Below, piece after piece: positions 12,067 through 58,918 of a DNA stretch of 64,000 nucleotides. The translations under genes and the position numbers were made by a program. Each line of letters begins with the position of its first letter. Within the stretch, counting starts at the first letter, position 1. The stretch is from NCBI GenBank assembly GCA_003024785.1, contig PUQB01000013.1, positions 744,001 through 808,000 on the forward strand, written 5' to 3'. Under the pieces are notes generated by a model. The model saw only the letters and a program-made list of their open reading frames with translations, made no database searches and was not told the origin of the DNA. The DNA comes from Selaginella tamariscina. Its lineage: Eukaryota > Streptophyta > Lycopodiopsida > Selaginellales > Selaginellaceae.

Positions 12067-13238
12067 CTCACAATGCTAAGATGCTCGTTTGCATGGGTTG
12101 CAAAGACACACACTGTTGCCAAAAAGACTGATGTCACAGGTGCAATTGCAGACAGCCAGAATAGTTTCTTGTTTCGCTTGCTCTGCAAATGTGAAAACAT
12201 TTGATATATATAACTTGTTATATATGTTTATATTAATGTATAGTTTAATTATATAATATAGTTATATTAATATAATAAATCTATAAACTTACGATTTGTT
12301 TCATTCCCATAAGAAAAGTGAGGAAGCATACTCCAATCACGATTGTTCTCCAGTTCCACTAAAACCATTTACTTAATGCATATTTATATTTACATTATAT
12401 TATTATTAAATATATATTATTGTATATGTTATATTATTATGTTTATATTAGTTTTACATGTGCAGGGTCTCTGAAGATGGAGTGTAAAACCGAGATAACG
12501 TCGGATTTCTTAGTGAACTTTTGTATTCCGAGAATGCCTTTCATTTGTTGGAGGCAAACTACAACAGCAACACCCCCTACAAAGCCCACTGTTGCTGCGT
12601 GTGATAGAAAGTCTATCACAAACCCAAGCCTTTAAACCACACAAAGTAAGTCATGTATACATATACGATGTTTTTAATATATATTCATTAGTATATTTAT
12701 TAAATATTATAATCTCTATATTTAATAATAAATGTAGTAATATAAAATAGAGTATTATACCTGAGGAACCCGAGGGAGAACTGGAATATTCCGGCAAAGA
12801 ACGTGGATGTCAAGGCAAGGCTTAAATGTGCCCGGACATCCGTATTGTCCGGGCCGAGGTCCTCGCGAATAAGCGTACCCAGCACAATAGAGATGACAGC
12901 AGCCGGACCAACTGCAAGGTCTCTTGAACTGCCAAATATTGCATATACCAGCGGAGGTAGAAAGCATGAATCTGCAAATACACGTTTGTCATTTTCTGTG
13001 TGTGCGTGTGTGTGTGTGTCTGTGTGTGTGTGACGTGCCTGTATACACATGATACACCTGAGATACATACACACACTCATATTGTCAGTAATACACAAGC
13101 AGGCACTTTCCATACTAACTATACCTGTCTTCTTTATGGCTCTTCCGTATACATGTAAATATGCACATATATAGCTCATAATATGGGTGTATAAACGTAC
13201 ATATATGCATTTACGTTAATGAATGATGACAGGAATGC

Positions 13239-34435: not shown

Positions 34436-35275
34436 ATTACATTACTAGCTTTAAAATTAATAAGAAATTTAATTATTATATTATCTATCAGTGGAAATGT
34501 TTTATATTTATAAAATAATTATGTTATTAATTTTTTAAATGATTTTAATGATTTTTATGTTGTTCAGCTGCAATGTCACGAACTGCAGTGAACCATAATG
34601 CAGGGTGTAAAACACAGGTTTCGTGCATAGTTATGTCGGTACTTGTGATGGCAACACTAGTGGCGCTTACTCCATTGTTTCATTACACTCCAAACGTTAT
34701 CCTTTCAGTGATTATATTCTGTGCATTAATCAGTTTAATCGATCCAATTGCAGCTTATGAGATATGGAAAGTCGATAAAATAGACTTCCTTGCTTGTATG
34801 GGAGCTTTCCTTGGCGTAATGTTCCAATCTATTCCTCTTGGCCTCCTCATTGCAGTAAGCACTATATATATAATGTATACACACAGATACACACGCGCGT
34901 GCACACATCAAAGTTACGTTCCTGATATCCATGAATATTATTTGTATATGTACCGTAACACGTGTAAAAGACATGTTAATGTTACAACTAATAGTGCGAC
35001 CACATATATACTGCTTATATATGCATGTATATTCAAACGTATAATATATGTAAATAGTTTTCTTATAGGTTGGTATCTCTGTGGGAAAATATTGCTGCAT
35101 GTTACAAGGCCACACACGGCAATATTGGGGAAAATCCCAGGTACAGGAATATATCGTAATGTTGAGCAGTATCCTCGTGCTATGAGGATTCCGGGGATTT
35201 TGGTAGTCCGCATAGATGCTGCAGTTTATTTCTCAAATTCTAACTACATCAGAGAAAGGTGCGTGCGTGTGAACA

Positions 35276-35325
<50 letters not shown>

Positions 35326-35676
35326 CTAAGCATTAAACAACGGGAGATAGTTTATGCTTCAGATACAATAATTAGGCAGATTTAATTCTGGAAGTAGAAT
35401 ATTTACTAATCTAATGTTTAAAAACAGGATCATGAGATGGATTGAACAGGAAACAATCGTGACAAAAAACATTGAGAAGCCTTCCTCACTCAAATACCTT
35501 GTGATTGACCTTACATGTAAGCATTTATTATATTTCTAATAATTAAGTTTATATCTAACTGTACAAATTAATTCAGCTGTTATGAGCATTGACACGTCTG
35601 GAATCCATGCCTTTGTGGAAATACACAGGACCCTTAACCTGCTAGACATTCAGGTATTCATCTCTATTGGTTACGC

Positions 35677-38829: not shown

Positions 38830-40010
38830 AGGATTAGGGTTCATGTAAAATTAGGGTTTGTGGGATCCGAAAGCGTTCGTGCTCACCTCCGGGATGGGGG
38901 GAGGAAGGCAGCCATGCTGGAGCTGGGCTCATCTGAGACAAGCCATGGCGTGAGTCCATGGAAGTATAAGTATTGCTCAAATACTTACACCGGCGCGGCT
39001 GAACAAGTTCGTGCTCATGCTTTCTTTTACTTAAGATTAGGGTTCATGTAAAATCAGGGTTCGCGGGATCCGAAAGCGTTCGTGCTCACCTCCGGGATGG
39101 GGGAAGGAAGGCAGCCATGCTGGAGCTGGGCTCATCTGAGACAAGCCATGGCGCGAGTCCATGGAAGTGTAAGTATTGCTCGAATACTTACACCGGCACG
39201 GCTAAACAAGTTCATGCTCACCTTTCACACCCTGAGTCCATGGAAGTGTAAGTATTCGAGGAAGTATAAGTATTGCTCGAATACTTACACCGGCGCGGTT
39301 GAACAAGTTCGTGCTCACCTTTCACACCCTGAGTCCATGGAAGTGTAAGTATTGCTCGAATACTTACACTGGCGCGGCTGAACAAGTTCGTGCTCACCTT
39401 GGGGGTGTGAAACACCAGCGCGGCTGAACAAGTTCGTGCTCACCTTGGGGTGTGAAAGGAAGGAATGTAGAATTCCTATACTTACACTGGCGCGGCTGAA
39501 CAAGTTCGTGCTCACCTTGGGGTGTGAAACACCAGCGCGGCTGAACAAGTTCGTGCTCACCTTTCACACCCTGAGTCCATGGAAGTGTAAGTATTGCTCG
39601 AATACTTACACCGGCGCGGCTGAACAAGTTCGTGCTCACCTTGGGGGTGTGAAAGGAAGGAATGTAGAATTCCTATACTTACACTGGCGCGGCTGAACAA
39701 GTTCGTGCTCACCTTGGCGTGCTCACCTTTCACACCCTGAGTCCATGGAAGTGTAAGTATTGCTCGAATACTTACACCGGCGCGGCTGAACAAGTTCGTG
39801 CTCACCTTGGGGGTGTGAAAGGAAGGAATGTAGAATTCCTATACTTACACTGGCGCGGCTGAACAAGTTCGTGCTCACCTTGGGGTGTGAAAGGAAGGAA
39901 TGTAGAGACTGAAATGTAGAATTCCTATACTTACACTGGCGCGGCTGAACAAGTTCGTGCTCATCTTGGGGGTGTGAAAGGAAGGAATGTAGAGACTTGT
40001 ATAGGACAGG
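38830..40010 (+). repeat. Mosaic array of BED zinc-finger exon pieces
   Basis: About twelve copies of a core GAACAAGTTCGTGCTCA occur in mosaic units of roughly 45-200 bp. In the frame of the longest pieces they read PWKCKYCSNTYTGAAEQVR, AHL, then GVKGRNVETC. This is the C-x2-C-x13-H-x11-C layout of plant hAT BED fingers. The first two units (38830-39010, 39030-39215) also carry a leader and MGSESVRAHLRD-like N-terminal sequence. At least five copies hold a perfect 11-bp inverted repeat, GTGTAAGTATT and its complement around GCTCG. Unit junctions fall at or beside these hairpins. The array is GC-richer than its surroundings. It is not one open frame throughout. Confidence 0.85.
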
Positions 40011-40385
40011 TGTAAGGATCATGAGTCATTTTTTACCTTTCACAGGACTTGAACCAGAGACCTTTTAATTAACACACACATGTGTTAACCAACTGGTCCG
40101 TATGATCCTGGATACTGAACTACACCATCAACAGCAAGGCGTATATTCATACGCATGTTCCAGACCAGTTATGGACCACACATTCCAGACCAGTTGTGGA
40201 CCATACAATCCTCAGGACCTCAGATATATAAACAGGGTTCCAGTTCCAGGTTTCTCAGAATCATTCAACACTAGTCTTCAGCCTTGTGTTTCATTTTGTA
40301 TTCATTTCTTTCTTGAATACAATCTCCTCCTTTCAAGGTTCCACCCTTGTTCTAAAGGTTTCGCCCTTTGCACAAGGTCGTGATA
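40011..40385 (+). repeat. Chromovirus copy 1, 5' LTR
   Basis: Starts TGTAAGGATC. A TATATAAA box stands at 40225-40232 and CTCAGAATCATTCAA at 40254-40268, about 30 bases downstream, where transcription should start. A tRNA-like block occupies 40016-40108 on the antisense strand. Confidence 0.9.
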
Positions 40386-40387
40386 GT

Positions 40388-40402
40388 TTGAATGATTCTG
40401 AG
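40388..40402 (+). promoter_or_regulatory. Self-complementary primer-binding-site candidate
   Basis: TTGAATGATTCTGAG, two bases after the LTR, is the exact reverse complement of LTR bases 40254-40268 at the predicted transcript 5' end. This resembles the self-priming site of Tf1-type elements rather than a tRNA-complementary site. Confidence 0.65.
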
Positions 40403-43400
40403 GTAGTGACAAGCTTCTGTTTCCACTTGTCATTGATCCCATTTTCTTTCTCTCTCTCTTTTCAATTTTCTTTTCGATTTCTTTTCTTTTCTTTTTCTTT
40501 TCTGATTTTCTTCTCTTTTTCTTTTTGATTCTTCTTCTTCAACTCATCATGTCCGAGCATGCTCTTCATGAGCAAGTTGTTGCCCTCCAGCAGCAGCTCA
40601 AACAACTACACCTGGAGAATGATCAGCTCCGACAGCGTGCGAATTCTCTAGAGTCGAAGATCAGCATGCTCGAAAAGTTTGATGGTACCCAATCGAAGTT
40701 CCAAGGTTTTCTTAATCAAGTTCGTCTGCGGATCGTGATGCAGCCAAGGCGCTACAGCACAGAACTCATTAAGGTTGGATTGATCGGGTCGCTGCTTTCT
40801 GGTTTTGCTCTTTCATGGTTCTCAGCCTTGCTGGAGAACAATAATCCAATCCTTGGGAATTTTGACGAGTTTGTGGAACGGTTCACGGATGTTCAGTGAC
40901 GTGGATCGTGAGAGTGCTGCCATCACCAAACTCCGTCAGCTTCACCAAGGGGGTATGTCGGTAGCAGAGTACGCATCGAAGTTTCAACTTCTTGCTTGTG
41001 ATGTCACATGGGGAGATCGTGCTCTCAAGGAGGTTTTCCGGTCGGGGTTGCAGGACGAGGTCAAAGACATGTTGCTGAATTTTGCGGTTCCGGAAACCCT
41101 CACCAGCATGATCGAGTTGGCAATTCGTTGTGACAACCGGTTGATCGAGCGGAAACAAGAACGTCGGCATCCTTCTTTCTTCTTGGTGCCGTCTTCTTCC
41201 ATTTCTGCAGTCCCTGTTCCCTCATCTGCTGATTCATCATCTTCCTCAGTAGAACCATCCCCGATGGAATTAGGGCGATCACGCCGAGGCAAGCTTTTGC
41301 CAACCGAACGTCAGAAGCGGATTCAGTACAAGCTTTGTTTGTACTGTGGGGACCCGTACACAAGTTGGAGAATTGTCATCGACGTCCAAAACAAGCTCGT
41401 GAAGTGGCCCTTGCTGTGCTGCCGGGAAACGAGAAGATCCAGCCCGAATAGGAGCCGTCCGGCTGGATTGCCGTGGAACAACTCATGTTCCTCAAGGCTC
41501 TTCACTCATAACATCTTCCCTTCCTCATCTTGGATCCATTCCATCCACGAAGGTGTGCAAGCCGTTCCATGTTCCGGTGCAGCTGAAGACACCAGAGGTG
41601 GAGTTCTCTGGTAAAGCTTTGGTGGATAGCGGAGCGAACGCAAATTTCATCGACAAGAATTTTGCTGTCAAACACGGGATCCGTCTACATCCTTTGAAGA
41701 CTCCTGGTTCTGTACGGGTCGTTGACGGACGAGATATCAAATCTGGAGCGGTAAAATGACACGGAGTTCGTTGAGGTCGTTGCTTGCGGTGTTGTGCAAC
41801 ATCTCCTTCAGTGTTGTTTCTATTCCAGACTCTACGATTATCCTTGGTTTGCCGTGGATCGAGTTGGTGGATCCTGGTTGGAGAGAACATTTCATGAACA
41901 GTTTCCCAACTGTTTTAACTCTAGCCACACTCTTTGATTTCGATCCTGTTCCAGTTCCTCTCCACTTCGAGTCTCGCATATCACCTTGAAGCAGTTCAAG
42001 AAAGATAGCCGACATGACCCAGCATCCGTGTTCGCGATCAAAGTCTATCCCTGCTCTGCTAAGGATGTTTCTATTCTTCCTGCCTTACCAAAGCAATATG
42101 TCGATTTCGCAGACGTCTTCGACAAAAAGAAAGCTTCTGGCCTTGCCACCGCACCGTGAGTACGACTGTCCTATCGATCTCGTTGAGGGTAAGCAGCCGT
42201 CCTCCGGTCCCATTTACGGTCTCTCACCAACGAGACATTGAGAGACATTGAGGACATTGAGGAATACATTGAGGAGAATCTTGTCACCGGATTTATCCGT
42301 CATTCGCGATCACCGGCTGGTGCTCCAGTATTCTTTGTTTCCAAGAAGGATGGAAGTCTCCGGCTCGTGGTGGACTACCGAGATCTGAATAAGGTCACCA
42401 TTCCAAACAAGTATCCTCTCCCGCTCGTCTCCGACATGCTCGAACGTCTTTCTGGTGCCCGTACTTCACAAAGATCGATTTAAGAGGAGCGTACAATCTC
42501 ATCCGAATTCGAGAAGGGGACGAGTGGAAAACAGCTTTCCGTACACGCTACGGACATTTCGAGTACGTAGTAATGCCGTTCGGCCTGACAAATGCACCTG
42601 CTGTGTTCCAGCACATGGCTAACGATATTTTGGGACTTCTTGGATTTGTTTGTCATCATGTACCTAGACGACATCCTGATATTTTCCAAGACTCGAGAAG
42701 AACACGAACGGCATGTACGGTTAGTCTTGGAGAGGCTCCGGAAGCACCACTTGTTTGCCAAGTTGGAGAAGTGCTCTTTCAGTCAGCAGTCTGTCGAGTT
42801 CCTGGGGTACATCATTTCAGCTGAAGGTGTTCACATGGATCCTGCAAAAGTCCGGACTGTATTGGAGTGGGAGAGACCATCAAATGTTCGTGATGTTCGA
42901 TGTTTTCCTCGGGTTTGCGAACTTCTATCGACGTTTCGTTCGGGATTTCTCCAAGATTGCATTGCCATTGACGAAGTTGACTGGCAAGGATGTTCCATTT
43001 GTCTGGTCCTCTGAGGCTGAGGAGGCGTTCGAGTTCCTAAAGAAGGCGTTCACCTCGGCACCTGTTCTTATCCATCCTGACCCTGCGAAGCCATATTTCG
43101 TGGAAGCTGATGCCTCTGACTTCGCCATTGGTGGAGTGTTGTCCCAGGAAGGTCCAGATCATCTTCTCCATCCCATTGCTTTCCATTCCCGCAAGTTCAC
43201 TGCACCTGAGATCAACTACGATGTCTACAACAAGGAGCTGCTGGCGATCGTCGATGCCTTTGAGGAGTGGCGCAGATTCCTTGAAGGTTCCCCGCATGTG
43301 GTTAAGGTGTATTGTGATCACAAGAACCTCCAGTACTGGGCAACAGCACGAGTTCTCAATCGACGTCAGGCGCGATGGGCACAGTCTTTGTCCCGGTTCC

Positions 43401-45079
43401 GATACGTGATTATTCATCGTCCCGGTCGTCTAAATGGCAAAGCAGATGCCTTATCTCGTCGCAGTTACCTAGCTCCAGTACCAGGTGAAATCCGATTTGA
43501 TCAACAAGAACAAGTCATCTGAGCTCCGACCAGTTGTTGGTGAACGCGCTTTCCCGTTCTTCTGCTCCAGTTGACACTTTTTGGATCTAATCCGAGAAAA
43601 TCTCCCTCAAGACGAGTTTGCTCGTGATGTCCTTGCACATGTTCGACGAGTTCAGCCATTGTCTTCAGGGTCACAACTACGAGATTATGCTGCTTTCCAT
43701 CTTCATAATGGGTTGCTGTACCACCACATCCAAATCTATGTTCCGGACGGAGAACTGAGGTTGCGAGCTGTCCAACACTGCCATGACAACACAGCTGCAG
43801 GACATTTTGGCATTCGGAAGACGATCGAGCTGGTACAACGGGTGTTCTGGTGGCCTCGGCTTCGCGTGTATGTTGAGAGATTTGTGCGATCTTGTGACAC
43901 GTGCCAGCGTACAAAGCTTCCTCGTCATCGACCGGTTGGACTACTACAGCCTCTTCCTATTGCTCAGCGGCCATGGTCATCCATCACCATGGATTTCCTC
44001 ACGGATTTACCGCCTTCTAGAGGGTTTGATGCTGTCCTAGTCATTGTTGATCGGTTCTCTAAGATGGCGCACTTTGTTCCCTGCAACAAGACATGTTCGG
44101 GTCCTGATGCTGCAGATCTGGTGTACCGGGAGGTGTTCCGCCTTCATGGTCTTCCTGATGAACTTGTCACTGATCGAGGTCCCCAGTTCACTTCGGCATT
44201 TTGGCGGAGATTCCTAGATCGGCTATGTATCACGGAAGCTGTTACTGCACATCATCCTAAACACAGATGGACAATCGGAGTGCACAATTCAGACTCTAGA
44301 ACAATATCTCCGGTGTTTCATTTCTCATCTACAAGATGATTGGGTCGATCTCCTTCCTGCTGCCGAGTTCGCGTACAACAACACGGCACACTCATCCATA
44401 GGTGTGTCGCCATTTTTCGCATTCTCTAGTGTTCATCCTCGCTGGTCCTACAGCTTGCCCGTGGTTCCTGGCCTCACCACTGCTGCTGATGATCATGTTG
44501 AGCATCTCCGACAGGTCCATGAAGAAGTGCAACATCATCTTCAACGCGCTCGGGATTTGCAACAACAAGCTGTTGATCGTTGCCGTTCTCTCCTCCAGCA
44601 TTCACAATTGGTGACCAAGTGTGGCTCCTCCGGTGTCATTGGCCAACCACACGTCCCTGTGATAGGGATTTGCAACAACAAGCTGCTGATCGTTCCCGTT
44701 CCTCTCCTCCAGCATTCACAATTGGTGACCAAGTGTGGCTCCTGCGGCGTCATTGGCCAACCACACGTCCCTGTGACAAGGAGGACTATCAACGCTTAGG
44801 GCCATTTCGCATCATCGACAAACTCTATGATGTGACGTTTCGTCTCGAGCTTCCGCCAACCATCCGGATCCATCCCGTGTTCCATGTTTCTTTGTTGGAG
44901 CCTTATCATGCTCCTTCTGAACCTGGCCGACTTCTTCCACCACCTCCTCCAGTTACAGTTGCTGGTAAACTTGAGTTCGAGGTTGCTACAATTCTTGACT
45001 CCAAACTTGTTCGTGGTCAGCTTCACTATTTCGTGGACTGGATCGGTTATACACCTGGTGAACGCACTTGGGATCAACG

Positions 45080-45490
45080 ATATCCTGCAAAACCTGGACC
45101 AGTGACACCTCATCTTGTTCATGCTCTTGATCTTGTTGCCGAGTTGATCCTGATCTTGTTGCCGAGTTCCATCAACGATATCCTGCAAAACCTAGACCAG
45201 TGACGCCTCATCTTGTTCATGCTCCTGATCTTGTTGCCGAGTTGATCCTGATCTTGTTGCCGAGTTCCATCAACGATATCCTGCAAAACCTTTGTTGCCG
45301 AGTTGATCCTGATCTTGTTGCCGAGTTCCATCAACGATATCCTGCAAAACCTAAACCAGTGACGCCTCATCTTGTTCATGCTCCTGATCTTGTTGTCGAG
45401 TTCCATCAATGATATCCAGGTTTTGGACGCCTCATCTTGTTCATGCTCCTGATCTTGTTGTCGAGTTCCATCAATGATATCCTGCAAAAC
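45080..45490 (+). repeat. Tandem repeat after the chromodomain of copy 1
   Basis: Four to five imperfect units of about 70-110 bp share CATCAACGATATCCTGCAAA and CATCTTGTTCATGCTCCTGA. The same array, differently rearranged, is in copy 2 at 49770-50150. Confidence 0.85.
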
Positions 45491-45517
45491 CTGGACCGGT
45501 GCTCGTAGGGGAGATCG

Positions 45518-45892
45518 TGTAAGGATCATGAGTCATTTTTTGTCTTTCACAGGACTTGAACCCGAGACCTTTTGGTTAACACACACATGTGTTAACCAAC
45601 TGGTCCATATGATCCTGGATGCTGAACTACACCATCAATAGCAAGGCGTATATTCATACGCATGTTCCAGACCAGTTATGGACCACACATTCCAGACCAG
45701 TTGTGGACCATACAATCCTCAGGACCTCAGATATATAAACAGGGTTCCAGTTCCAGGTTTCTCAGAATCATTCAACACCAGTCTTTGGCCTTGTATTTCA
45801 TTTTGTATTCATTTCTTTCTTGAATACAATCTCCTCCTTTCAAGGTTCCACCCTTGTTTTAAAGGTTTTGCCCTTTGCACAAGGTCGTGACA
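45518..45892 (+). repeat. Chromovirus copy 1, 3' LTR
   Basis: Preceded by a purine-rich AGGGGAGATCG. It holds the best-preserved tRNA-like block (45523-45615), including a perfect 12-bp stem with a 4-base loop at 45572-45599. Confidence 0.9.
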
Positions 45893-47891
45893 ATAGGTGC
45901 CACTGGAGGTGGTGAACAAGGCTCGGGCATCTTTTAATCGTGTGGAGCTCACGAAGAGCTCCATGATTGCAGCAAGTCCCCAAGAGAGACTTGCCATAGC
46001 TCACAAGACTGAGGTCGGTGAGGTGAGCGGCGGTGCCATCTGCGGGGCAAGTGGTGGGGCTACCGGAGGGCTGGGCGAGGCAAGCAGCGGCAGCGTTCCA
46101 CTTTCTGGGAGCAGCAGTCTTAAACGAAGTGCTGCACCAGCGCTAGATGGTGACATTCGAAAGATGATGAAGTCTGCAAAGGTTCAATGTTTGGATGATG
46201 CCGTGGCCGAGTTCTTCTACGTTGAAAATATCCCTTTCAACACCATTCGGAGGCCAAATCTGAGGAAGTTGCTTCAAGCTGCTATCGACTTCAACCCTGG
46301 AGCTCTTGCACAGATGATGGGATATGAGAAGCTGCGGAGTACACAACTGAAGAAGCTTTATGATAGTGTCAATGCTTGACTTGATCCAATCCGTGAGGGG
46401 TGGAGGTTAGCATCGTCACCGATGGCTGGTTTGACAACCGTAGCCGATCCTTGATCAACTTCATGGCCTCCAACGTCCAGTCTGTGGATTCCGAGGGCAG
46501 GACAAAGACGGGAGAGTGGATTTGGGTCGAGCTGAAGAAAGTGATTCAAGAAGCTGGCAAAGAAAACGTTGTTCAGGTGATCACTGACAATGCATCAAAC
46601 TGTGTGCAGATGGGAGAACTCATGACAACTAAGTATCCTCACATTCTCCATGGCCACAGCCAGTGTGTGTGCCACGTCTTGGACCTTCTCTTCGAAGACA
46701 TCGGGAGCTTGTTGTGGGTAAAACCATTGGTGAAAGGCTGCAACGAGGTGGTAACTTTTATCACCAAAAAACCTCGTGTTCTGGCTTTGTTTCGGAAGCT
46801 GAGCAATCGGGATCTCATCAAGCTGGCGAGCACAAGGTTCGTTTACATGTTTTTAGTGATGTCTCAGCTCCTGAATTTGACGACCTTGGAGGCATTGAAG
46901 GAGATGGTTGTGAGCTCCAAGTGGCGGCGATTGGACGTCACGAAGACTGCCAAAGCCCAATGAATTCGAACTTGGATCTTAGAAGAGACTCCAAACTCTT
47001 TCTGGACTAGGTGCCAGCACTTTTTGGTGCTGCTTGGACCGCTCGTCAAGGTCTTGAAGCTTGCGGACCGGAAGGGGGCAACTTCCGGTCTCATTTTCGA
47101 GGCTATGGACCGGATGAATGAGAAGCTTTCAGAGGCTATTGAGACTGGGATTTTAGCCGAGGAAGAGGTCGAGGAGATCAACATGTTCATGATGGAGGAT
47201 CATGGCGAGGGAGGTTGGAAAGCAGCTCGTTGGTTCCAGATGCATTCGATCTTGCATGGAGCTGCTTTTGTTCTGAACCCAGCTTTTCTTCATCTCCCTC
47301 CCGACCAGGAGGCTCAGGAAGATTTTGTGGAGTACCTAGAGTTGTATTGCAAAGGAGATTGAGGACAAGTTGCTGCACGAGTTTCAGAGTTTCCGTCAAC
47401 AACTTGGCCGTTTGTTCTCTTCGGAGGCAGCAAAGCAGGTGCGTATAAACTGTTTGTTTGTCAACTTTTTAGACTGATTCTCTTGTATAGATGGAGAACC
47501 GGAAACACCCGGTGAGTTGGTGGAGCAACTTTGGTGCAGGCACACTAGAACTTCAAAGGCTTGCTTTACGAATCTTGAGTCAGCCAGTTTGTGCTTCACC
47601 ATGCGAGCGCGAAACTGGAGCTCATGGAGCATGATCCAGACGAAGAGGAGGTCTCGACTGCTCTCCAAAAACTTGAAGAAGCTGGTTTTTGTGCACACAA
47701 ATATGCGTGTTGTACAGAAGATCGAGTCCGGGAGTTTGAGGCTTATCGAGCATGATCTTGATAACCTTGAGCTTGAGCCTCAGTGGCAAAGGATCCTTGC
47801 ATTTCAGGAGGTTGTTGAAGAACCTCTTCAACAATCTGATGACGGCGGCGCTAGTGGTGATGATGTTCTAGATTTGAAGGATGAAAATTAG
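45893..47891 (+). pseudogene. hAT transposase, BED/DUF659/dimerisation type, body of the coding region
   Basis: Continues the BED-finger reading frame of the hAT element across the chromovirus insertion point (VPLEVVNKARASF). Landmarks: SIVTDGWFDNRSRSLINF (first catalytic Asp region) and VQVITDNASNCV (second Asp) are typical of DUF659-type hAT transposases. STRFVYMFLVMSQL and AMDRMNEKLSEAI follow. After a 52-nt intron (47439-47490) comes the C-terminal dimerisation signature: VSWWSNFGAG, LQRLALRILSQPVCASPCE and LVFVHTNMRV. An in-frame TGA stands near 46376 and frame shifts near 46400 and 46960, with another in the C-terminal CERNWS region near 47600. The copy is probably inactive, though most of its length is preserved. 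Confidence 0.88.
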
Positions 47892-49336: not shown

Positions 49337-49733
49337 TGTCACAACCTTGTGCAAAGGGCAAAACCTTTAGAACAAGGGTGGAACCTTGAAAGGAGGAGAT
49401 TGTATTCAAGAAAGAGATGAATACAAAATGAAGCACAAGGCCGAAGACTGGTGTTGAATGATTCTGAAAAACCTGGAACTGGAACCCTGTTTATATATTT
49501 AGGTCCTGAGGATTGTATGGTCCATAACTGATTTGGAATGTGTGATCCACAACTGGTCTGGAATGTGTGCTCCATAACTGGTCTGGAACATGCGTATGAA
49601 TATACGCCTTGCTGTTGATGGTGTTTCAACATCCAGGATCATACGGACCAGTTGGTTAACACATGTGTGTGTTAGCCAAAAGGTCTCGGGTTCAAGTCCT
49701 ATGAAAGACAAAAAATAACCCATGATCCTTACA
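49337..49733 (-). repeat. Chromovirus copy 2, 3' LTR
   Basis: Minus-strand TGTAAGGATC start at 49733 and TGTCACAACC at the other edge on the plus strand. Contains the tRNA-like block near its 49.63-49.73 kb side. Confidence 0.88.
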
Positions 49734-49769: not shown

Positions 49770-50150
49770 GGTCCAGGTTTTGCAGGATATCGTTGATGGA
49801 ACTTGGCAACAAGATCAGGAGCATGAACAAGATGTCCAGGTTTTGCAGGATATCGTTGATGGAACTTGGCAACAAGATCAGGAGCATGAACAAGATGTCC
49901 AGGTTTTGCAGGATATCGTTGATGGAACTTGGCAACAAGATCAGGAGCATGAACAAGATGAGCAGCATGGTCCAGGTTTTGCAGGATATCGTTGATGAAA
50001 CTCGGCAACAAGATCAGGAGCATGAGATATCGTTGATGGAACTTGGCAACAAGATCAGGAGCATGAACAAGATGAGCAGCATGGTCCAGGTTTTGCAGGA
50101 TATTGTTGATGGAACTCGGCAACAAGATCAAGAGCATGAACAAGATGAGC
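49770..50150 (-). repeat. Tandem repeat after the chromodomain of copy 2
   Basis: Five units of about 66-75 bp share TTTTGCAGGATATCGTTGAT and GGCAACAAGATCAGGAGCAT. This is the counterpart of 45080-45490 with a different copy number and order. Confidence 0.85.
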
Positions 50151-53100
50151 AGCAGGCTCCCAAGTGTGTTCGCCAGGTGGATAACCAATCCAGTCCACGA
50201 AATAGTGAAGCTGAGGTTCACCAGCAACTGTAACTGGAGGAGGTGGTGGAAGAAGTCGGCCAGGTTTAGAACTCAAGTTCACCAGCAACTGTAACTGGAG
50301 GAGGTGGTGGAAGAAGTCGGCCAGGTTCAGAAGGAGCATGATAAGGCTCCAACAAAGAACATGGAACACGGGATGGATCCGGATGGTTGGCAGAAGCTCG
50401 AGACGAAACATCACATCAGAGAGTTTGTCGATGATGCAAAATGGCCCCAAGCATTGATAGTCCAGCTTGTCACAGGGACATGTGGTTGGCCAATGATGCC
50501 GAAGGAGCCTGGTCACCAATTGTGAATGCTGGAGGAGAGGAACGGGAACGATCAGCAGCTTGTTGTTGCAAATCCCGAGCGCGTTGAAGATGATGCTGCA
50601 CTTCTTCATGGACCTGTCGGAGATCTAGTCCACGAAATAGTGAAGCTAACCGAACAAGTTTGGAGTCAAGAATTGCAGCAACCTTGACTCAGGTTCACCA
50701 GCAACTGTAACTGGAGGAGGTGGTGGAAGAAGTCGGCCAGGTTCAGAAGGAGCATGATAAGGCTCCAACAAAGAAACATGGAACACGGGATGGATTCGGA
50801 TGGTGGCAGAAGCTTGAGACAAAACGTCACATTAGAGAGTTTGTCGATGATGCGAAATGGCCCCAAGCGTTATAGTCCAGCTTGTCACAGGGACGTGTGG
50901 TTGGCCAATGACGCCGGGAGGAGCCACACTTAGTCACCAATTGGAATGCTGGAGGAGAGAAACGGCAACGATCAACAGCTTGTTGTTGCAAATCCCGAGC
51001 GCGTTGAGATGATGCTGCACTTCTTTATGGACTGTTGGAGATGCTCAACACGATCATCGACAGCTAGTGGTGAGGCCAGGAACCACGGGCAAGCTGTAGG
51101 ACCAGCGAGGATGAACACCAGAGAAGGCAAAAAATGGCGACACACCTATGGATGAGTGTGCCGTGTTGTTGTACGCGAACTCGGCAGCAGGAAGGAGATC
51201 GACCCAATCATCCTGTAGATGAGAAATGAAACACCGGAGATATTGTTCTAGAGTCTGAATTGTGCACTCCGATTGTCCATCTGTTTCAGGATGATGTGCA
51301 GTAGACATCTTCCCGGTGATACGTAGCCGATCTAGGAATCTCCGCCAGAATGCCGAAGTGAACTGGGGACCTCAATCAGTGACAAGTTCATAGGAAGACC
51401 ATGAAGACGGAACACCTCCGGTACACTAGATTTGCAGCATCAGGACCCGAACATGTCTTGTTGCAGGGAACAAAGTGCGCCATCTTAGAGAACCGATCAA
51501 CAATGACTAGGACAGCATCAAACCCTCTAGAAGGCGGTAAATCCGTGAGGAAATCCATGGTGATGGATGACCATGGCCGCTGAGCAATAGGAAGAGGCTG
51601 TAGTAGTCCAACGGTCGATGACGAGGAAGCTTTGTACGCTGGCACGTGTCACAAGATCGCACAAATCTCTCAACATACACGCGAAGCGAGGCCACCAAAC
51701 ACCCGTTGTACCAGCTCGATCGTCTTCCGAATGTCAAAATGTCCTGCAGTTGTGTTGTCATGCAGTGTTGGACAGCTCGCAACCTCAGTTCTCCGTCCGG
51801 AACATAGATTTGAATGTGGTGGTACAGCAACCCATTATGAAGATGGAAAGCAGCATAATCTCGTAGTTGTGACCCTGAAGACAATGGCTGAACTCGTCGA
51901 ACATGTGCAAGGACATCACGAGCAAACTCGTCTTGAGGGAGATTTTCTGGATTAGATCCAAAAACGAAGTGTCAACTGGAGCAGAAGAAGGGAAAGCGCG
52001 TTCACCAACAACTGGTCGGAGCTAGAATGACTTGTTCTTGTTGATCAAATCGGATTTCACCTGGTACTGGAGCTAGGTAACTGCGACGAGATAAGGCATC
52101 TGCTTTGCCATTTAGACGACCGGGACGATGAATAATCACGTATCGGAACCGGGACAAAGACTGTGCCCATCGCGCCTGACGTCGATTGAGAACTCGAGCT
52201 GTTGCCCAGTACTGGAGGTTTTGTATCACAATACACCTTAACCACATGCGGGGAACCTTCAAGGAATCTGCGCCACTCCTCAAAGGCATCGACGATCGCC
52301 AGCAGCTCCTTGTTGTAAACATCGTAGTTGATCTCAGGTGCAGTGAACTTGCAGGAATGGAAAGCAATGGGATGGAGAAGATGATCTGGACCTTCCTGGG
52401 ACAACACTCCACCAATGGCGAAGTCAGAGGCATCAGCTTCCACGAAATATGGCTTCGCAGGGTCAGGATGGATAAGAACAGGTGCCGAGGTGAACGCCTT
52501 CTTTAGGAACTCGAACGCCTCCTCAGCCTCAGAGGACCAGACAAATGGAACATCCTTGCCAGTCAACTTCGTCAATGGCAATGCAATCTTGGAGAAATCC
52601 CGAACGAAACGTCGATAGAAGTTCGCAAACCCGAGGAAACATCGAACATCACGAACATTTGATGGTCTCTCCCACTCCAATACAGTCCGGACTTTTGCAG
52701 GATCCATGTGAACACCTTCAGCTGAAATGATGTACCCAGGAACTCGACAGACTACTGACTGAAAGAGCACTTCTCCAACTTGGCAAACAAGTGGTGCTTC
52801 CGGATCTCCAAGACTAACCGTACATGCCGTTCGTGTTCTTCTCGAGTCTTGGAAAATATCAGGATGTCGTCTAGGTACATGATGACAAACAAATCCAAGA
52901 AGTCCCGGAAAATATCGTTAGCCATGTGCTGGAACACAGCAGGTGCATTTGTCAGGCCGAACGGCATTACTACTACTCGAAATGTCCGTAGCGTGTACGG
53001 AAAGCTTTTTCCACTCGTCCCCTTCTCGAATTCGGATGAGATTGTACGCTCCTCTTAAATCGATCTTTGTGAAGTATCGGCACCAGAAAGACGTTCGAGC

Positions 53101-55109: not shown

Positions 55110-55124
55110 CTCAGAATCATTCAA
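55110..55124 (-). promoter_or_regulatory. Self-complementary primer-site candidate of copy 2
   Basis: Plus-strand CTCAGAATCATTCAA stands two bases from the 5' LTR edge at 55127. The exact complement lies in the same LTR at 55243-55257. Both the sequence and the 2-base spacing are conserved with copy 1. Confidence 0.65.
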
Positions 55125-55126
55125 AC

Positions 55127-55526
55127 TGTCACGACCTATGCAAAGGGCGAAACCTTTAGAACAAGGGTGGAACCTTGAAAGGAGGAGATTGTATTCAAGA
55201 AAGAAATGAATACAAAATGAAGCACAAGGCCGAAGACTGGTGTTGAATGATTCTGAGAAACCTGGAATTGAAACCCTGTTTATATATCTAAGGTCCTGAG
55301 GATTATATGGTCCACAACTGGTATGGAATGTGTGATCCACAACTGGTCTGGAATGTGTGCTCCATAACTGGTCTGGAACATGCGTATGAATATATGCCTT
55401 GCTGTTGATGGTGTAATTCAGCATCCAGGATCATACGGACCAGTTGGTTAAAACATGTGTTTTGTTAGCCAAAAGGTCTCAGATTCAAGTCCTATGAAAG
55501 GCAAAAAATAATTCATGATCCTTTCG
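55127..55526 (-). repeat. Chromovirus copy 2, 5' LTR
   Basis: About 400 bp, matching the other three LTRs including the TATATAAA box on the minus strand and the tRNA-like block; the outermost bases are altered. Confidence 0.85.
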
Positions 55527-55530
55527 TATA

Positions 55531-56015
55531 GAACACAAAAGATTAATAAACAAATAAGATTTAATTAAAGTCAAATTTTCTCAGAACACAAAAGATTAAT
55601 AAACAAATAAGATTTAATTAAAGTCAAATTTTCTCAAATATTACTAAGCTTTAGTAGTACCAATTGAAGAAAATTCATAACTTAAGATTTTAAGTCATAA
55701 ATGTAAAATTAATTATATATAAATTTGGGCAACAAATACAAAGAACAAAAAGATTAATAAACAAATAAGGTTTACTTAAAGTCAAATTTTCTCAACTATT
55801 ATTAAGCTTTAGTAGTACCAATTGAAGAAAATTCATAACTTAAGTCATAAATGTAAAATTAATTATATATAAATTTGGGCAACAAATACAAAGAACACAA
55901 AAGATTAATAAACAAATAAGATTTACTTAAAGTCAAATTTTCTCAAATATTACTAAGCTTTAGTAGTACCAATTGAAGAAAATTCATAACTTAAGATTTT
56001 TAAGTCATAAATGTA
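55531..56015. repeat. ~155-bp tandem repeat, three units plus a partial
   Basis: Units begin at about 55531 (partial, 52 bp), 55583, 55739 and 55893. Each holds AAAGATTAATAAACAAATAA, GTCAAATTTTCTCA, GCTTTAGTAGTACCAATTGA and, in the complete units, AAATTTGGGCAACAAATACA. The array abuts the outer edge of chromovirus copy 2. Confidence 0.9.
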
Positions 56016-57369: not shown

Positions 57370-58918
57370 TTATATTTCTATGGCAAACCTGGGAGAAACG
57401 ACAGCTTCTAACGGAGTCTTCAAACAGACCACACTCGCATTTGCCTCTTCCATGTCATATTTTCCCTGGCACAAAATTCCATTCGAAACCATGGACTAAG
57501 TTTGAAACTAGAAGCTGGACAGTTTTCAATCCCAATACCATTCCTGGACAAATGCGTCTTCCTGATCCAAACGGGAGTAATTCGAAATCTTGGCCTTTGA
57601 CATCTATAGAACTTTCAAGAAATCTCTCTGGTCGAAACTCCAAAGCGTCTTCTCCCCATACAGTTTTATCAGTTGTAATAGCGTACACATTAACAAATGT
57701 GCTACAACCACTTGGAATGTCATATCCTGCAAGCTTGCATGGCATAATTGTCATGTGTGGAGCTAACAAAGGTGCGGGAGGATGCAGCCTCAAACCCTCT
57801 TTAATAACTGCATTTAAATAAGATAGCTTATGAAACTCAGTTTCTTCAACCACTGGATTATGCCCCACAACGTTCATAATCTCTTCTTGAACTCTCTCCA
57901 TAGCTTTTGGATTTTGAAGAAGTTCCATGAGTATCCATTCAGATGTGATAGCAGCTGTGCCAGTCCCGGCAACAATAAGTTCCTGCAAATTATACTAATG
58001 TGAGTTCTACATATGAAATGTTAAAATTTAACAAGTTACCATGATTAATGACTTAATGGTCTCATCATTTCTGCCTTGGAAATATTCAATCATGATATCC
58101 AGAAAATCCTTAAGTTTCCTGTCACGGCGGTCTGACCTGCGCTCACTTAGAACCTTTTCTAAGAACTTATCGAGCTTAGCTTGATTAAGCTTCATTCTTG
58201 GGATTTCCCAATCTATCCATCTTAGATACGGTGGAACAAACTCGCTAATGTGAAACAGAAGAAACTCCTGAACAACTTCGTCTGAAACATCCTTAAACAA
58301 GTTAGCGTCAGGGTCAACTTCGCCTTCCTCATGTTTATCATAACTGAAGTACCTCTTGCTAATCAATATGCGAGTCATCACGTTGTGAGTCATACCCGTT
58401 AGGAGCTTCCTCACATCAACGGTTTCACCTCGTCGATGAGTTTCGACTAGAGAAGACAGTACGCGAGACATCTCATCCATTCTCACAGAAAGATAGGAAT
58501 CAATGCTTCGTGTAGTAAAAAGCTCGGTCGCGCAGAGCTTTCTCATATTTTTCCAGTGTTCGTTGAGAGGCGTGGCTACAATACCTGAGAAATTGTACGA
58601 GACATACTTGGCATATATGATGAACGGCCTCGACGCGAAAGCTGAATCTTGGTTCTTCAGCACCTCTCTGGCTAACTCCGGTGTTGAAACAACCACAGCT
58701 GGCTGGAAACCCAGCCGTAGAAATACAATGGGACCGTATTTTCTCGAGATTGCTAAGAAAGACTGTTTCGGAATACCTGTTGCCAAATGATGAAGATGGC
58801 CAATTAGGGGCAGTTTCCATGGTGATGGAGGTAACTTCGGACCAAATACTGCACTAAACAAACACTTGAATACTACTGCAATCAAAGCTGTGGAGAAAAT
58901 GACTGAAAGAAGCTCCAT
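57370..58918 (-). CDS. Microsomal cytochrome P450 (CYP71-clan-like), two exons
   Basis: A heme monooxygenase of the ER membrane; the substrate cannot be told. Exon 1 is 58040-58918 (ATG at 58918) and exon 2 is 57370-57982. The intron opens GTAACTTG and ends TTGCAG, at the position common in plant A-type P450s. Landmarks: N-terminal anchor LLSVIFSTALIAVVFKCLF, hinge PPSPWKLPLIGHL, C-helix WKNMRK, K-helix EGLR, EFRPERF, heme loop FGSGRRICPG and C-terminal MEEANASVV. Length is about 497 residues. The I-helix reads AGTGTA where the family has (A/G)Gx(D/E)T(T/S); the truncated relative at 36.7 kb keeps AGTDTT. A frame break at the T-run 57460-57463 ends the frame at 57455, about 28 residues early, after the heme loop. 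An A-homopolymer indel would explain it. Confidence 0.88.

Follow-up and report, generated by a model that had tools for sequence, protein, structure and literature searches.

Probable self-priming and a variable primer-binding-site edge in a chromovirus family of Selaginella tamariscina

Two copies of a Ty3/gypsy chromovirus family lie in opposite orientation in a 64,000-nucleotide stretch of the Selaginella tamariscina genome (contig PUQB01000013.1, positions 744,001 to 808,000), here called the window. Their features are listed in Table 1. The long terminal repeats (LTRs) have the general form TGTAAGG...GTGACA; the GTGACA end is found in three of the four, and the copy 1 5′ LTR has a TA end. 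Copy 1 is flanked by ACAGG and ATAGG, which resemble a 5-bp target duplication with one change. Its LTR pair differs by 14 transitions and 1 transversion (K2P 0.042), and that of copy 2 by 18 transitions and 5 transversions (K2P 0.061). Reading frames are broken in both copies. The Chromo match scores 23.7 bits, just under the cut-off of 25.1, and in a by-eye reading of this below-cut-off match F, W and Y occupy the expected aromatic-cage positions of a chromodomain.

Tandem repeats with units of 41–114 bp are located between the chromodomain region and the 3′ LTR at 45073–45482 and 49771–50332, and the arrays differ between copies. Further tandem arrays stop within 20 bp of the copy 1 5′ LTR (39163–39993) and start 4 bp past the copy 2 5′ LTR (55530–55995). 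A DUF659 fragment, a hAT-type transposase label, lies between the oppositely oriented copies (46400–46963, +). A cytochrome P450-like sequence beside the element is split over two frames (57455–58918, −), and its first ten matches are all from Selaginella moellendorffii at 41–49% identity (longer frame nearest). Sulfate permease is represented by two partial frames on opposite strands, 12703–13179 (−) and 34573–35382 (+).

Table 1. Positions of the element features in the window
Feature	Position	Strand	Basis or remark
Copy 1 5′ LTR	40011..40385	+	TG...TA; aligned to the window's three other LTRs
Putative TATA box TATATAAA	40225..40232	+	Sequence; first T 32 nt ahead of the predicted RNA start
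Candidate self-primer AGAATCATTCAA (RNA nt 1–12, counted from the predicted start)	40257..40268	+	Sequence
Spacer GT, 2 nt, between LTR and PBS	40386..40387	+	LTR alignment, boundaries
Primer binding site (PBS) TTGAATGATTCT, 12 nt	40388..40399	+	Exact complement of 40257–40268
Highly variable far PBS edge, GAGG in copy 1	40400..40403	+	19 forms in 106 copies
gag region, broken frames	40549..41614	+	Retrotrans_gag in ORF 40805–41614
RNase H part of pol	42755..43519	+	RT_RNaseH, RT_RNaseH_2
Integrase zinc-binding and core domains	43581..44336	+	Integrase_H2C2, rve; best PDB match is the Ty3 polyprotein
Integrase C-terminal SH3 (Tf2-1-like) and chromodomain match	44580..45200	+	SH3_Tf2-1 above cut-off
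Polypurine tract AGGGGAGA ahead of 3′ LTR	45507..45514	+	Common to copy 2
Copy 1 3′ LTR	45518..45892	+	375 bp, same length as 5′ LTR
Copy 2 3′ LTR	49337..49733	−	Boundary comparison
Copy 2 PBS	55113..55124	−	GAG edge at 55110–55112
Copy 2 5′ LTR	55127..55526	−	Decayed start; target duplication not recognised
Copy 2 self-primer segment	55243..55254	−	Sequence

The sequence TTGAATGATTCTGAG at 40388–40402 has its exact reverse complement, CTCAGAATCATTCAA, inside the copy 1 5′ LTR at 40254–40268. The same pair is found on the minus strand in copy 2 (55110–55124 and 55243–55257, 15/15), and the spacing from LTR to PBS is 2 nt (GT) in both. Both observations had been made in an earlier note on this DNA and were confirmed. 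The LTR segment also occurs in the 3′ LTRs; the copy 1 match is complete (15/15), and that of copy 2 differs at one base (14/15). Fifteen complementary bases were reached in 0 of 20,000 dinucleotide-shuffled LTRs (offsets 0–5 after the LTR; maximum 13) and at 0 of 13,000 other window positions (maximum 12). As in Tf1/sushi elements, the PBS next to the 5′ LTR is thus complementary to an LTR segment, at 15 of 15 bases in each copy.

The PBS of tRNA-primed plant chromoviruses (Reina, CRM, Tekay, Galadriel) starts with TGG, the complement of the tRNA 3′ end. TGG is absent from the first 65 nt of the copy 1 leader and the first 67 nt of the copy 2 leader, so these leader starts hold no site for a mature tRNA 3′ end, and tRNA priming was set aside. 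A comparison with tRNA 3′ ends had been suggested as a check on self-priming; the absence of TGG from these leader starts agrees with the Tf1/sushi type, in which a tRNA-type PBS is lacking. No tRNA gene was found within the 64-kb window, and no Rfam match in 39900–40800.

The host assembly (300,702,823 bases, 300.7 Mb, 1391 contigs) was searched for related copies. Of 968 candidates in a DNA search, 40 were scored, giving 41 matches, and 30 loci were cut from these; addition of copy 2 and removal of two 3′ LTRs gave 29 sequences with a leader or leader-like stretch. This search was not keyed to the PBS, and 26 of the 29 carry the 12-nt site without a mismatch. The exceptions are L099, L100 and L096, the last of which is probably not a true leader. 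Complementarity in other family members, another proposed check, is largely kept. A PBS-free pattern (GTGACAGT, 8–24 nt of any sequence, GTAGTGACAAGCTT), which misses copies with changed flanks, copy 1 included, had 232 matches, and among the first 100 of these by contig the PBS is exact in 92. Another pattern had 266 matches in the host genome. The 12-mer primer is exact in 83 of 99 family copies. Covariation was not seen within the family: the primer varies little, and where primer or PBS differs (e.g., L099) the partner is unchanged. An integrase search of IMG/VR gave one pattern match and no relative, and 54 viral-contig matches of the 15-mer were taken as chance and left unused.

A scan of genome contigs yielded a single relative, L001, whose bin carries the name of a cyanobacterium, Trichormus. 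The bin has 36 integrase matches, several with open frames >1000 aa, which are probably eukaryotic retroelements in a bacterial record (a contaminated bin). Twelve leader-side stretches from it were examined (L001, L064–L074); six of them come from the 8 best matches, and the other six are more distant. The self-priming geometry is present in three, C18 (L001), C127 (L067), and C361 (L064), whose integrases are 52–54% identical to that of the window. Among the other nine, the geometry is absent from C121, C204, and the six distant elements, and C263 begins inside gag. The primers are AAGGCGAACAA in C18 and C127 and ACTCTTGATCAA in C361, each with a perfect complement 2 nt after TGACA; C18 and C127 are not independent of each other, since their primer is identical. 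The LTR end of these relatives is predicted from the TGACA motif.

Window and relatives have a common layout of TATA, 32–33 nt, a primer of 11–12 nt, CAC, the LTR end TGACA (TGATA in copy 1), a 2-nt spacer, and the PBS. Relative to the window, both partners have changed in 6 of the first 11 pairs of C18, all still Watson-Crick, and the same count holds for C361. The covariation that the earlier note proposed to look for is therefore found between families and not within the family, where the partner does not follow. In the MFE fold of the predicted RNA, modeled without a shuffled control, primer and PBS pair over their full length in all five sequences folded, with a mean pair probability of 0.94–0.99.

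Both elements, with their broken frames, belong to a large family of apparently Tf1/sushi-like chromoviruses, probably of the Tcn1 clade. In a tree of 21 integrases that included no Tf1 sequence, the window joins, with moderate support (92/89), the three self-priming relatives, one basidiomycete element, and four unnamed proteins, and this group adjoins vertebrate elements. A clade of the window with the Adiantum (fern) and Tanacetum (angiosperm) elements was rejected (p-AU 0.014), and so was one in which the window is joined by no elements other than the three relatives (p-AU 0.017). The window's position is not fixed in a larger integrase tree, also without a Tf1 sequence. No protein named Tcn1 is among the best 120 listed matches of either protein search.

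Both elements very probably initiate reverse transcription by self-priming of the Tf1/sushi type (probability roughly 0.87). This reading is well supported because three distant relatives keep the layout with different yet perfectly complementary sequences. The earlier note had proposed it from the window; the geometry and the predicted fold favor it, and so do the covariation seen in distant relatives and the missing tRNA-type PBS. Transcription would start at A40257, about 32 nt below the TATA box, and the RNA would begin AGAAUCAUUCAA. Its first 12 nt would fold back onto the complementary PBS, 2 nt beyond the 5′ LTR, and an RNase H cut behind the last A, before CAC, would release these 12 nt as an RNA primer. 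As each cycle closes, the primer would be copied into plus-strand DNA (plus-strand strong-stop) and so enter the new PBS, so that primer and PBS would stay matched, a consequence drawn from the general scheme of reverse transcription.

A primer of 12 nt (40257–40268) is more likely than one of 15 nt. All 15 bases had been proposed as the site, with the RNA starting at about 40254. The pairing stands; CTC at 40254–40256 lengthens it to 15 in copy 1. Only the first 12 bases act as a fixed pair, the last three bases of the site (GAG) falling in the highly variable edge, and the 15-nt primer was dropped. The 12-nt primer is preferred because, with a start at A40257, it begins 32 nt after the first T of TATA in the window and 32, 33, and 32 nt after it in the relatives, and because in all four elements the primer then opens with A after C and closes with CAA before CAC. 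The TATA-like sequence is at the position noted earlier, and A40257 appears a better candidate for the first base than 40254. Indirect signs of an RNA 5′ end in this segment are the TATA 32–33 nt upstream and the C-A start shared by the four elements, and the variable edge at the matching base.

Two other accounts of the inverted repeat were weighed. The element could be tRNA-primed and the repeat merely a structural stem of the RNA leader, serving packaging or dimerization. Most plant chromoviruses are primed by tRNA-Met or other tRNAs (PMC6317226, available excerpt), and the predicted fold is stable by itself; however, TGG is missing from the leader starts of both copies (65 and 67 nt), and the stem arms begin at exactly LTR+2 nt and about TATA+32 in each of four elements, whose sequences are of three different kinds. 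The structural stem is considered highly improbable. Another highly improbable account has the site primed by a half-tRNA or an internal stretch of a tRNA, with the LTR match secondary. Such priming exists in some plant Ty1/copia groups (PMC6317226, available excerpt), and the leader here was checked against TGG alone. A site matching the element's own LTR speaks against it, as does the joint change of both partners in distant relatives, which is unexpected with a fixed cellular tRNA.

The unexpected part of the site is its variable far edge. The insert between the PBS and GTAGTG takes 15 forms of 0 to 3 nt among the 100 matches listed of 232, most commonly GG (23), GAG (19), AG (15), and G (14), then rarer forms. 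For a wider comparison, 121 sources (120 loci and copy 2) gave 118 alignable 5′ ends, 108 of them distinct and 106 with a readable edge; 24 of the 106 copies were not chosen by PBS, and the remainder were chosen by edge flanks. With flanking anchors, 455 positions were scored for diversity, and 40400 stands highest (0.855, median 0.19). Behind it come its neighbors, the polypyrimidine tract, a repeat inside the LTR, and position 40599. In copies <2% apart, the edge differs in 76 of 102 pairs, 62 of them in length and 14 in bases alone. The mean of 404 control positions in the same test is 12% of pairs. Four of the 404 reach the level of the edge. Three belong to the polypyrimidine tract (40474, 40475, and 40478; 65 of 78 close pairs differ at 40475) and one to gag (40599, 71 of 93 close pairs). 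In a smaller control set of 280 positions of 40025–40462, which omits the polypyrimidine tract and gag, none is as variable as the edge. The edge thus changes much faster than most of the region, without change in its LTR partner, and is not the sole fast site.

Homoplasy of the edge was scored on a poorly resolved tree of 100 copies (the 106 with an edge minus 6 long-branch rows), on which 61 changes were counted (mean of shuffles 66.3), with a retention index of 0.11. On the same poorly resolved tree, the index is 0.13–0.21 for three variable control sites and −0.01 to 1.00 for six others. The three closest pairs of copies (0.23–0.25% apart) have identical edges, probably as duplicated DNA.

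The RNA 5′ end may have left its footprint in the variable edge. A new PBS copy would stop at that end, and a variable start, the cap, and untemplated bases would leave short variable inserts. Copying of CTC from upstream starts accounts for G, GA, GAG, and no insert (37 of the 100 listed edges); the other 63 would need additions or imperfect joining. Rewriting of the edge from the copied RNA 5′ end, the last step of the explanation, is given slightly less than an even chance. The general proposal is held a shade more tentatively: that the far PBS edge of self-primed elements is a hypervariable, replication-coupled scar recording the parental RNA start together with reverse transcriptase additions at the capped end. 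Alternatively, the edge could be a spacer that is free of constraint or prone to mutation, or in part an artifact of assembly, and self-priming may hold regardless. The four equally variable control positions indicate that high variability arises elsewhere without a primer, and because the full control set holds them the scar was rated lower and the spacer or artifact higher. Residual long-read indel errors hit runs such as GG, and edges are shared by the closest pairs. Against a spacer or artifact, 74.5% of close pairs differ at the edge versus 2% at the median control position, the edge is not itself a long run and its bases vary besides its length, and CTC, the LTR counterpart and would-be template, is intact in 80 of 93 copies. 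Changes within LTR pairs are mostly transitions (14/15 and 18/23), unlike those at the edge. A spacer or artifact is considered rather unlikely.

The view, repeated in the earlier note, that plant Ty3/gypsy elements are tRNA-primed is correct in general, but an exception is published. According to the available excerpt of Neumann et al. 2019, the Tcn1 clade, found in mosses and club-mosses, is the one group of plant chromoviruses with predicted self-priming, and the prediction covers most of its members (PMC6317226). Going by that excerpt, self-priming is not new for plant Ty3/gypsy elements, and the site here is of a known kind. The spikemoss family also resembles the Tcn1 clade, as excerpted, in host group, in being a Ty3/gypsy element with a chromodomain match (here just below cut-off), and in a T-rich leader after the 5′ LTR. 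A search of SM-Tcn1 of S. moellendorffii by Novikova et al. 2010 brought up no primer site of either the tRNA or the self-priming type (PMC2864245, available excerpt), whereas the present family has a clear one; LTRs are 440 bp there versus 375–400 bp in the spikemoss copies. Classical-kind chromodomains have been described in Selaginella elements (PMC3350952, available excerpt).

In Tf1 of Schizosaccharomyces pombe, the first RNA nucleotides are complementary to the PBS, as they would be here with the RNA start predicted from sequence. The first 11 RNA bases of Tf1 pair with the PBS and RNase H cuts between bases 11 and 12, compared with a predicted 11–12 nt in the spikemoss family and its relatives; the available excerpt of this source mentions no variable PBS edge for Tf1/sushi (PMC7175516). 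Tj1 of Schizosaccharomyces japonicus has a PBS complementary to the RNA 5′ end, and self-priming was proposed; it is fungal and was shown to be active, and it is likened here by description alone (PMC4600332, available excerpt). The spikemoss integrase has a Tf1/sushi-like combination of a Tf2-1-like SH3 domain and a chromodomain match just below cut-off; the family differs from Tf1 in its plant host and its sequence, and is known here from sequence alone. TAR-lineage Ty1/copia elements (Houba, Osr-1) belong to another superfamily and are not known to have a chromodomain integrase. Self-priming is predicted for these plant elements as well (PMC6317226, available excerpt).

The present family adds a clear self-priming site and between-family covariation for a Selaginella chromovirus, in a genus for which the excerpted earlier paper found none (PMC2864245). 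Literature searches, in sources available in part, found no report of a variable PBS edge in self-primed elements, which is not proof of absence. Such an edge, if confirmed, would be a cheap, sequence-only signature of self-priming, and the RNA start and the copying of the primer end would become testable from genome sequence. If the edge is a replication scar, genome assemblies would hold a natural 5′-RACE of many past retrotranspositions. A second related family is present in the same genome (C754:58204-58938, C928:96488-97216, and C1193:634996-635730), with integrases 56–57% identical.
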